A DNA stretch of 54,449 nucleotides, from positions 1-54,449 of the forward strand of contig JAFLBG010000021.1 in the NCBI GenBank assembly GCA_017303975.1, given 5' to 3'. This DNA comes from Bacteroidota bacterium (GTDB taxonomy: Bacteria; Bacteroidota; Bacteroidia; JAFLBG01). The notes beneath the pieces are model-generated. The model was given only the letters and a program-made list of their open reading frames with translations, searched no databases and had not been told where the DNA came from. Shown here one piece after another: positions 32,623 through 35,495 of this stretch. Numbering within the stretch: the stretch's first letter is position 1; every line of letters starts with the position of its first letter. The translations under genes were made by a program, and so were the position numbers.

Positions 32623-34536
32623 TTATTTTATTTCTTCGTAATCTACATCAGTTACTTCAGAACCTTCCTTTTTTCCGGAAGCATCTGCTCCAACACCTGC
32701 ATTTGCATTAGGATCTGCAGCACCGCCTTGAGAAGCTTTGTACATATCTTCAGAAGCAGCTTGCCATGCAGCATTTAACGCTTCCATAGAAGAATCAATA
32801 GCAGCCAAATCCCTTGCAGCATGCGCTGTTTTAAGCTGATTGTAAGCTGTTTCGATTGCACCTTTTTTATCAGCAGGTAACTTATCGCCATATTCTTTCA
32901 ACTGTTTTTCAGTTTGGAATATCAACGAATCTGCCATGTTTACCTTTTCTGTTTCTTCTTTTACTTTTTTATCTGCATCTGCATTTGCTTCGGCTTCTTT
33001 TCTCATTTTTTCAATCTCCTCTTTGCTTAATCCTGAACTAGCCTCAATTCTAATGTTTTGAGATTTTCCGGTAGCTTGGTCTTTTGCAGTTACATGCAAT
33101 ATACCATTCGCATCAATATCAAAAGTTACTTCAATTTTCGGTGTTCCTCTTGGTGCAGGCGGAATGCTATCTAAATGGAAACGACCAATTGTTCTATTGT
33201 CTTTTGCCATTGGACGCTCGCCTTGTAAAATATGAATCTCTACAGAAGGTTGATTATCGCTTGCAGTTGAGAACACTTCCGATTTTTTAGAAGGAATTGT
33301 TGTATTCGATTCTATTAATCGTGTCATCACACCACCCATTGTTTCGATACCTAATGAAAGAGGAGTAACATCCAATAACAATACATCTTTCACTTCGCCT
33401 GTTAATACACCACCTTGAATAGCAGCACCTACAGCAACAACTTCATCCGGATTAACACCTTTAGAAGGAGCTTTACCAAAGAATTTTTGTACTGCTTCTT
33501 GTACCGCAGGGATACGAGTAGAACCACCTACAAGAATAACTTCGTCAATATCATTTATTGTTAAGCCTGCATTTTTTAATGCCGACTCACAAGGTTTAAT
33601 AGTACGTTTAATCAAATCATCTACCAATTGCTCAAATTTAGCTTTGGTTAATGTCTTCACTAAGTGTTTTGGAATACCATCAACCGGCATAATGTAAGGC
33701 AAGTTAATTTCTGTTGACGCAGAGCTTGATAATTCAATTTTAGCTTTTTCAGCAGCTTCTTTTAAACGTTGCAATGCCATTGGATCTTTTGTTAAATCAA
33801 ATGATGCTCCATTTTCTTGTTTGAATTCTGCCACTAACCAATCAATTATTTTTTGATCAAAATCATCACCACCTAAATGTGTATCTCCGTCTGTAGATTT
33901 TACTTCAAACACTCCATCGCCTAATTCTAGCACAGATACATCATGTGTTCCACCACCACAGTCAAAAACAACTATTTTAATGTCTTTGTTTTTCTTATCT
34001 AATCCATAAGCCAATGCAGCAGCAGTAGGTTCGTTTATAATTCTACGAACTTTTAAACCGGCAATTTCTCCGGCTTCTTTTGTTGCTTGACGCTGTGCAT
34101 CATTGAAATAGGCAGGAACTGTAATAACAGCTTCTGTTACTTCGTGTCCCAAATAATCTTCCGCAGTTTTTTTCATTTTCTGAAGAATGATTGCAGAGAT
34201 TTCTTGAGGTGTATATTTTCTATCTTCAATTTCTACACGAGGCGTATTGTTATCGCCTTTTACTACTTTATACGGAACACGCTTAAGTTCTTTTTCAACT
34301 TCAGCAAAGTTTTGACCCATAAAACGTTTTATTGAATAAACTGTTTTAGTAGGATTAGTTATAGATTGGCGTTTTGCAGGATCTCCTACTTTGCGCTCTC
34401 CGTTATCTATAAATGCTACAATAGAAGGAGTCGTTCTTCTTCCCTCACTGTTCGGAATTACAACAGGCTCGTTACCTTCCATAACGGCTACGCAAGAGTT
34501 TGTTGTTCCTAAGTCGATACCAATAATTTTTGCCAT
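32623..34536 (-). CDS. dnaK: Molecular chaperone DnaK (Hsp70)
   Basis: A 637-residue Hsp70. The ATPase domain (~1-383) opens [17 protein letters not shown] and contains [13 protein letters not shown] and [10 protein letters not shown]. The substrate-binding domain (~390-505) has [17 protein letters not shown], and the helical lid runs to ~605. A Gly/Ala-rich linker precedes the acidic tail ending DVDYEEIK. The tail replaces the E. coli type end and is shared with the DUF4834 protein of this window. Neither grpE nor dnaJ is adjacent. Upstream (34584-34599) lies a sigma-54-like promoter with inverted repeats further out. Confidence 0.97.
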
Positions 34537-34583
34537 ATTATTTATTTTTTATTATTTACAATTTGTTAATTACAAACTCTTTA

Positions 34584-34599
34584 GTCAATGATTGTGCCA
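34584..34599 (-). promoter_or_regulatory. Sigma-54-like promoter of dnaK
   Basis: On the minus strand TGGCACAATCATTGAC matches the -24/-12 consensus TGGCACG-N4-TTGCW with exact spacing. The deviations are A for G at position 7 and A for C in the GC dinucleotide of the -12 box. The predicted start would give a leader of about 38 bases before the dnaK ATG. It is read by eye only. Confidence 0.45.
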
Positions 34600-34619
34600 A
34601 CGAAAATACGAGTCTATTT

Positions 34620-34677
34620 TGACAGATTGCAACCCTTTTTATGAACTGACACGAACAATAAAGCTGCCAAAAAGGCA
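34620..34677. promoter_or_regulatory. Inverted-repeat cluster upstream of dnaK
   Basis: TGACAG (34620-34625) is repeated inverted-like as CTGACA (34646-34651), and a short palindrome TGCC-AAAAA-GGCA occupies 34665-34677. The cluster lies 20-80 bases upstream of the sigma-54-like element, where an activator would bind. Function is inferred from position alone. Confidence 0.35.
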
Positions 34678-34793
34678 TTTTTTGTAGCTAAAACCCTAAA
34701 AAAGCCCACAAATATAAAGCAAGTCAAAGCTAGATTATCAAAAACATTCAACACGTATATTTCTTATATTTACAAAAGCTTTATACGCACCCA

Positions 34794-35495
34794 ATGTCAG
34801 CAAATCAACTACCGGAAGTACTTTACGAAGACAATCATATTATTGCTGTAAATAAGCGCCCTTCGGATATTGTGCAAGGCGATAAAACAGGCGATACTCC
34901 CTTAAGTGATTTTGTAAAAAAATACATTAAAGAAAAATACAATAAACCCGGAGATGTTTATTTAGGAACTACCCACAGAATAGACCGTCCCGTAAGTGGC
35001 ATTGTATTATTTACCAAAACAAGCAGAGCGCTTAGTCGCATGAACGAACTTTTTAAAAACAAACAAATACAAAAAACGTATTGGGCTGTAGTAAAAAATA
35101 AGCCCAAACAATCGGAAGGCATATTAGTTAATTACCTTATTAAAGACGAGAAAAAAAACAAATCGAAAGCTTTTGACAAAGAGGTGAATGGTGCACTGCG
35201 CTCCGAACTTAGTTATAAGACACTAGCAAACTCAGAGCATTATTATTTATTGGAGATAAAGCCTGCTACAGGCCGACATCACCAAATACGCGTGCAGCTT
35301 GCACACATGGGCTGCCCTATAAAAGGTGATATAAAATATGGCTTTGATAGAACCAATAAAGATGCTTCTATTCATTTGCATGCAAGAAAAGTGGAGTTTA
35401 TACATCCCGTAAAAAACGAACCGCTTATTATAGTTGCCCAACCACCCAAAGAAGCCCTATGGGACTACTTTTTAACACTTTTTAAGGATAAATAA
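34794..35495 (+). CDS. RluA-family pseudouridine synthase
   Basis: A 233-residue pseudouridine synthase acting on rRNA or tRNA. The catalytic aspartate is D64 in THRIDRPVSGIVLFTK. Other family motifs are the opening VLYEDNHIIAVNKRPS, TYWAVVKNKP and GRHHQIRVQLAHMGCPIKGDIKYG (~163-186). There is no N-terminal S4 domain, as in the RluA/TruC subgroup. It is divergent from dnaK with 257 bases between, and the metalloprotease gene starts 45 bases after its stop. The RNA target is not evident. Confidence 0.92.
   Translation: MSANQLPEVLYEDNHIIAVNKRPSDIVQGDKTGDTPLSDFVKKYIKEKYNKPGDVYLGTTHRIDRPVSGIVLFTKTSRALSRMNELFKNKQIQKTYWAVVKNKPKQSEGILVNYLIKDEKKNKSKAFDKEVNGALRSELSYKTLANSEHYYLLEIKPATGRHHQIRVQLAHMGCPIKGDIKYGFDRTNKDASIHLHARKVEFIHPVKNEPLIIVAQPPKEALWDYFLTLFKDK

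Follow-up and report, generated by a model that had tools for sequence, protein, structure and literature searches.

The HrcA/CIRCE heat-shock system pairs a palindrome common to dnaK and groESL with a regulator gene linked to the chaperone operon. At sigma-54 promoters, the opening of the polymerase complex needs an AAA+ protein. In Bacteroidota, a major gut and aquatic phylum, control of the heat-shock genes is unsettled in the literature examined, and a close described case comes from Flavobacterium psychrophilum, where 5'-end RNA sequencing assigned the starts of dnaK, groESL, lon, grpE-dnaJ, htpG, and clpB to a motif (SM4) that its authors called typical of sigma-54 (PMC9723704). According to the same study, the only alternative sigma factors of that species are sigma-54 and ECF, its genome holds one sigma-54 and three PF00158 proteins, and distinct activators were supposed possibly to serve distinct clusters; the parts of the article available to us name no enhancer motif and no activator for the chaperone cluster (PMC9723704). 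In silico sigma-54 regulons of Bacteroidota were likewise enriched in the GroEL, GroES, IbpA, GrpE, DnaJ, and DnaK families, and the main text of that work contains none of the terms "UAS," "upstream activating," or "palindrom"; no activator assignment for the chaperones was seen there (PMC12316311). For the terms searched, no link between sigma-54 and chaperones emerged from a start map of B. thetaiotaomicron, a Bacteroidales review, or an iModulon study. The initial annotation of the locus studied here had presented RpoN control of dnaK as a departure from known models, a claim to novelty that is outdated, since such control was published in 2021 (PMC9723704) and in silico in 2025 (PMC12316311). 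A third point of reference is PspF of Escherichia coli, which binds a UAS and negatively regulates its own expression (PMC3709507).

The sigma-54 reading of dnaK is well supported from sequence and known in kind. What the present analysis would add is a helix-phased enhancer common to the chaperone genes, together with a conserved activator candidate (EBP2) whose own operon carries the same site; a search of the open-licence literature turned up nothing on the palindrome or its phasing, on the assignment of EBP2, or on the own-operon site, which subscription papers may nonetheless describe. Where a sigma-54 chaperone promoter has been mapped in one species, the enhancer, the candidate found in nearly all genomes examined, and the own-operon site would attach a specific protein and a specific DNA site to heat-shock gene control in Bacteroidota and so make it directly testable.

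The window (54,449 nt) encodes a 637-aa DnaK on the minus strand (32623..34536; 1014.8 bits to NCBIfam NF001413, whose cut-off is 648), with its ATG beginning at 34536 and a pseudouridine synthase-like gene at 34794 running divergently. As the initial annotation had it, TGGCAC-N5-TTGAC with exact spacing lies at a sensible distance from the gene: the putative sigma-54 promoter (TGGCACAATCATTGAC, 34599..34584, minus) consists of a -24 TGGCAC and a -12 TTGAC, its TGGCAC-N5-TTG core (34586-34599) lies 49 nt 5' of the ATG, and the distance between the GG and the final G of the TTG is canonical (10 nt from the GG of TGGCAY to the -12 element). Transcription would be expected to start near 34573. 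An A follows TTG in the -12 box, giving GA where GC is usual. Farther upstream on the same strand lies the predicted enhancer palindrome TGCCT-TTT-TGGCA (TGCCTTTTTGGCA, 34677..34665; TGCC-N5-GGCA), which has one mismatch to TGMCA-N3-TGKCA and begins 78 nt 5' of the TGG. Between the two are a GTGTCAG half-site of the same motif (34652..34646, minus) and a weak second palindrome, TTGCA-ATC-TGTCA, with two mismatches (34620..34632, minus; 33 nt 5' of the TGG), putative in nature and containing a CTGTCA half-site (34625..34620, minus). A second -24/-12-like match, TGGCAGCTTTATTG at 34656-34669 (minus), overlaps the palindrome and probably arises secondarily from the half-site TGGCAG.

A perfect Bacteroidota sigma-A -7 box, TATATTTG, occurs on the minus strand at 34709..34716, 172 nt 5' of the dnaK ATG; most relatives are without one, and it is possibly a basal second promoter of dnaK. 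No sigma-70 promoter of the TTGACA/TATAAT type was present on the minus strand of 34400-34900, no intrinsic terminator was found, and an Rfam gathering search of the window returned 0 matches to known RNA elements. The bare -24/-12 match was dropped as proof because such matches do not exceed chance in the window, where TGGCACN5TTG with at most one mismatch occurs 12 times against 9.3 expected. The whole genome holds 39 exact matches against 9 for the reversed pattern. What lifts the dnaK site above chance is its conservation and its pairing with a phased palindrome.

Conservation was assessed in 81 dnaK upstream regions, namely that of the window and those of the best 80 of 582 relatives, ranked by the first 150 DnaK residues and restricted to named genomes; the sample was drawn phylum-wide because the window genome is alone in its genus, family, and order in the genome collection. 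TGG[CT]A[CT]-N5-TTG was found within 115 nt of the ATG in 75/81, mostly near -50 from the ATG. The initial annotation had named absent conservation among orthologues as a refutation, and its reading withstood that check. At base 7 these 75 sites have A (67) or G (8), and TTG is followed by A in 46, by T in 22, by C in 6, and by G in 1. The TTG itself is kept, while the GC expected at -12 is absent from the window (TTGA) and from all but the 6 sites reading TTGC, which lowers the claim to a textbook site but not the claim of sigma-54-like control. The prevalence of TTGA or TTGT (68/75) bears on how the sigma-54 of Bacteroidota reads the -12 element. Six upstream regions lacked the strict motif (L036, L046, L071, L073, L097, and L106). 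One of them, from the reduced symbiont Karelsulcia (L073), has no site of any kind in a genome without RpoN and EBP2. Four others (L036, L046, L097, and L106) count against the main reading, since both RpoN and EBP2 are present and the dnaK sites are merely degenerate; so does L071, in which RpoN is present, the EBP2 orthologue is absent, and the dnaK site has a 4-base spacer. A conserved sigma-A promoter of dnaK was considered and rejected: TAnnTTTG occurred within 200 nt of the gene in just 4/81 upstream regions, fewer than in shuffled sequences (mean, 11.9), and this depletion implies that no conserved housekeeping promoter competes with the -24/-12 site.

The upstream repeats that the initial annotation took for an activator site (TGACAG/CTGACA and TGCC-N5-GGCA) belong to a palindromic, helix-phased element, a predicted enhancer. 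Of the 75 dnaK promoters (from the best 80 of 582 relatives plus the window), 67 had TGMCA-N3-TGKCA with at most one mismatch in the 130 nt 5' of the -24 element, a count that averaged 1.3 and never exceeded 6 over 100 dinucleotide shuffles; for the exact palindrome, the figures were 25/75 and 0.1. These shuffles overstate independence because the sequences are related. A gap of 3 was strongly favored, as the control gaps of 0-2 and 4-8 gave 0-10 of 75 with one mismatch allowed, and elsewhere in the 80 loci, 26 of 2840 segments of 130 nt contained a palindrome. The half-site TGTCAG was seen in 33/75 upstream regions of relatives (2.3 in shuffles). The check on groES that had been proposed with the annotation gave a comparable picture: among the upstream regions from 28 genomes, 27/28 had a sigma-54-like core and 23/28 the palindrome (shuffles, 0.88), although the -12 box is even looser there than at dnaK. 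The pairing was weaker at grpE, where 30 loci yielded 26 promoters with a core and only 15 of these had the palindrome, and the window's own palindrome, with its one mismatch and its 78 nt, falls outside the commonest distance class; all three points count against the main reading.

The distances are themselves ordered. Counted from the palindrome's first base up to the TGG, with the best site taken for each of 105 promoters (67 dnaK, 23 groES, and 15 grpE), they fall at 24-28, 34-38, 45-48, 56-57, 66-69, 75-79, 87-89, and 99 nt, with two beyond (117 and 147), which corresponds to steps of 10.5 bp (25, 36, 46, 56, 67, 78, and 88). The Rayleigh length was 0.863 and was maximal at 10.5 bp (n = 105); without the first peak, R was 0.80 (n = 54), a value equaled or exceeded in 0 of 20000 uniform draws, a null that ignores shared ancestry. 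Removal of promoters of the same gene that were at least 50% identical left R at 0.860 (n = 98), or 0.806 without the first peak (n = 52). With decoy gaps, R was 0.45 rather than 0.86, the nonzero value probably arising from reused true half-sites. In conventional promoter numbering, the center would lie near -45 for the 25-nt class and near -98 for the window site. Within the window genome, the palindrome lies 78 nt from the TGG at dnaK, 88 at groES, 25 at htpG, 25 at lon, and 24 at grpE. Steps of 10.5 bp, as expected, fit an enhancer on one face of the DNA, so that a palindrome found upstream of -24, in common among these genes and on one helical face, has the features predicted of a UAS; the cross-species phasing also offers a natural data set on how enhancer-binding proteins reach the sigma-54 polymerase.

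The window genome has one RpoN (a single Sigma54_DBD match, 177.7 bits) with an intact RpoN box, ARRTVAKYRE. Among 50 of the 80 relatives' genomes, picked to hold all six odd upstream regions, RpoN was matched in 44 and not in G005, G008, G015, G017, G025, and G041 (the last being that of L073). The first five keep the dnaK site without an RpoN match, which counts against the main reading; four of these records are metagenome or single-cell assemblies, and G005 is an isolate draft. Together, the phylum-wide motif, the intact RpoN box, and the mapped F. psychrophilum promoters support the annotation's proposal that RpoN controls dnaK (PMC9723704). Control of the chaperones by HrcA/CIRCE was rejected: HrcA was matched in 0/51 genomes (the control matched in 7/14), and CIRCE (TTAGCACTC-N9-GAGTGCTAA, at most 4 mismatches) in 0/81 dnaK and 0/28 groES upstream regions.

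Two full Sigma54_activat proteins are encoded in the window genome, and four more matches are weak. EBP2 (414 aa) combines an AAA+ domain with a GAFTGA-type loop reading GSFTGA (PF00158, 229.4 bits, starting at residue 12) and a C-terminal Fis-type HTH (PF02954, 53 bits, residues 370-410), without a receiver or sensor domain. EBP1 (387 aa, L114:1081-2244, plus strand) has a receiver and an AAA+ domain with the loop GAFTSA, and no HTH in Pfam; open frames of EBP1-like length recur among the phylum-wide matches. The EBP2 gene lies in the order miaB-hypothetical-EBP2-lptE-TPR-secG-groES-groEL, the genes being named by translation and position. Orthologues (at least 51% identity and at least 350 bits) were found in 47/50 genomes and were absent from G039 (L071), G041 (L073), and G044 (L076), the last of which keeps its dnaK site and so counts against EBP2. 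In 40 EBP2 neighborhoods, lptE and secG were each present in 38 (with one secG on the opposite strand), the TPR gene in 36, miaB in 30, and groES in 28. The recognition segment of the HTH is near-invariant in 41 sequences, and mean conservation is 0.76 in the HTH against 0.48 in the linker. EBP2 was the sole activator match in six genomes (G018, G023, G032, G040, G049, and G050); of these, four keep the strict dnaK site with the palindrome (L050, L055, L064, and L072), and two have degenerate dnaK sites (L097 and L106). These features make EBP2 the likely activator of the chaperone promoters, with its binding to the palindrome predicted from sequence.

The palindrome also precedes the operon of EBP2 itself. 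It was found before miaB in 27/30 neighborhoods, 17 of them exact (shuffles, 0.75 and 0.03), while a sigma-54-like core was found there in only 1/30. In 27/27, a TAnnTTTG box follows within 60 nt, mostly 29-33 nt from the palindrome start and most frequently at 31 nt, a spacing at which the palindrome overlies the -33 region of the miaB sigma-A promoter; the window genome likewise has TGCCATTTTGTCA and, 29 nt from the start of this sequence, TATTTTTG. Loci without an adjacent miaB have the palindrome before EBP2 in only 2/10 cases, which counts against the main reading. A palindrome over the sigma-A promoter of miaB-EBP2 suggests autorepression by EBP2.

These results are best accommodated by enhancer-dependent control of dnaK and a chaperone regulon by EBP2 and sigma-54, with autorepression of EBP2, a reading to which we assign a probability of roughly 0.82. 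Sigma-54 RNA polymerase would wait at the TGGCAC-N5-TTG of dnaK as a closed complex, from which a sigma-54-dependent start would be made once EBP2, bound to TGMCA-N3-TGKCA on a fixed helix face, had hydrolyzed ATP to open the complex. The genes groESL, htpG, lon, and grpE would be driven by this combination of palindrome and -24/-12 element, which would make EBP2 and sigma-54 a heat-inducible protein-quality-control (heat-shock) regulon of Bacteroidota that would replace RpoH or HrcA/CIRCE. By binding the palindrome that covers the -33 region of the miaB-EBP2 sigma-A promoter, EBP2 would limit its own synthesis, as PspF does. EBP2 would work like PspF without being PspF: both are AAA+ activators with an HTH, but EBP2 scores 272.3 bits against the PspF family NCBIfam TIGR02974, under the cut-off of 443.55, carries a linker of about 100 residues ahead of its HTH, and heads the groESL gene group, with chaperone genes as proposed targets. 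Unlike in the psp system, no PspA-like inhibitor was identified for EBP2, and the palindrome would mostly be centered near -45. The likeness to HrcA/CIRCE lies in a palindrome at both dnaK and groESL and a regulator gene linked to the chaperone operon; the differences are that an activator acting with sigma-54 is proposed in place of a repressor and that HrcA and CIRCE are absent here. The -24/-12 promoters before the same chaperone genes resemble the SM4 system, and in F. psychrophilum groES (THC0290_0729) is a few locus tags away from a unit of a "probable sigma-54-dependent regulator" and lptE (THC0290_0733) (PMC9723704). Beyond that study, the phased palindrome, the activator candidate, and the own-operon site are proposed here phylum-wide. 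A wider picture, which we hold only tentatively, is that a single sigma-54 switch replaced both RpoH and HrcA in Bacteroidota: the sensor-less EBP2 would be held inactive by free chaperones (DnaK, or the GroEL encoded in its own gene group) and freed when misfolded proteins titrate them, whereupon it would activate dnaK, groESL, htpG, lon, and grpE through a helix-phased enhancer close to the promoter and repress its own operon. A sensor-less activator encoded beside groESL does suggest such a testable feedback.

If sigma-54 drives dnaK, the activator at the palindrome might instead be EBP1 or an unrelated regulator, with the position of EBP2 beside groESL incidental. EBP1-type proteins are widespread too, one genome (G044) keeps its dnaK site without an EBP2 match, and the binding of EBP2 is a sequence-based prediction. 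EBP1, however, has no HTH in Pfam; EBP2 is the only activator match in six genomes, four of them with the strict site and the palindrome; the operon preceded by the palindrome in 27/30 cases is that of EBP2; and a non-AAA+ protein could bind the DNA but not open a sigma-54 complex. We therefore regard a different activator as unlikely.

A heat-shock repressor would also be suited by palindromes at dnaK and groES. In that case sigma-A or a different sigma factor would recognize the TGG/TTG motif, and the palindrome would be an operator, an analogue of CIRCE, as the unconserved -12 GC and the miaB palindrome lying over a sigma-A promoter might suggest. Yet the spacing and TGGCAY are of the sigma-54 type, the mapped F. 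psychrophilum starts were assigned to a sigma-54 motif (PMC9723704), TAnnTTTG is depleted before dnaK, and helix-phased distances reaching 99 nt upstream suit activation rather than occlusion; with HrcA and CIRCE absent as well, a repressor of this kind appears very improbable. Least credible is that the window match is a chance or decayed site and that dnaK is transcribed from the sigma-A promoter at TATATTTG (34709-34716). That box is perfect, bare -24/-12 matches are not above chance in the window, and the window palindrome has a mismatch; against this, the window site agrees in position and sequence with 74 other dnaK upstream regions, its palindrome is in phase at 78 nt, the same pair recurs at groES, htpG, lon, and grpE of the window genome, and TAnnTTTG before dnaK is not conserved.

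In the 3.43 Mb of the window genome, exact palindromes occur at only five places, a reversed control pattern being equally frequent: before groES, before htpG near a sigma-54 site, before miaB in the EBP2 operon, and at two places within ORFs. All 94 exact TGGCAY-N5-TTG sites were examined (58 + 36); 26 are intergenic, and of the first 58, 39 fall within ORFs. Only 4/94 have a palindrome (at most one mismatch) within 150 nt upstream, where about one such pair is expected by chance (density, 22 per 310826 bases): those of dnaK, lon, htpG, and a metallopeptidase-like gene, lon and htpG being named by eye from translations. The genes groES and grpE are outside the 94 because their -24/-12 matches are looser. 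The fourth site, TGGCATTCATATTG with CGCCAGATTGGCA 76 nt upstream (L285:1228, minus; G000:C58:13264-13277), precedes a gene for a 232-aa membrane metallopeptidase-like protein, possibly a further regulon member or the one expected chance match.

Among the 19 intergenic sigma-54-like sites of the first 58, the palindrome is missing at 16 (L003-L007, L009, L012, L015, L016, L032, L156, L157, L159, L172, L173, and L176), which mostly lie just before genes with secreted- or membrane-anchored-looking products. These sites may form a second regulon of sigma-54, with EBP1 as its activator; being without a DNA-binding domain, EBP1 would need no enhancer.
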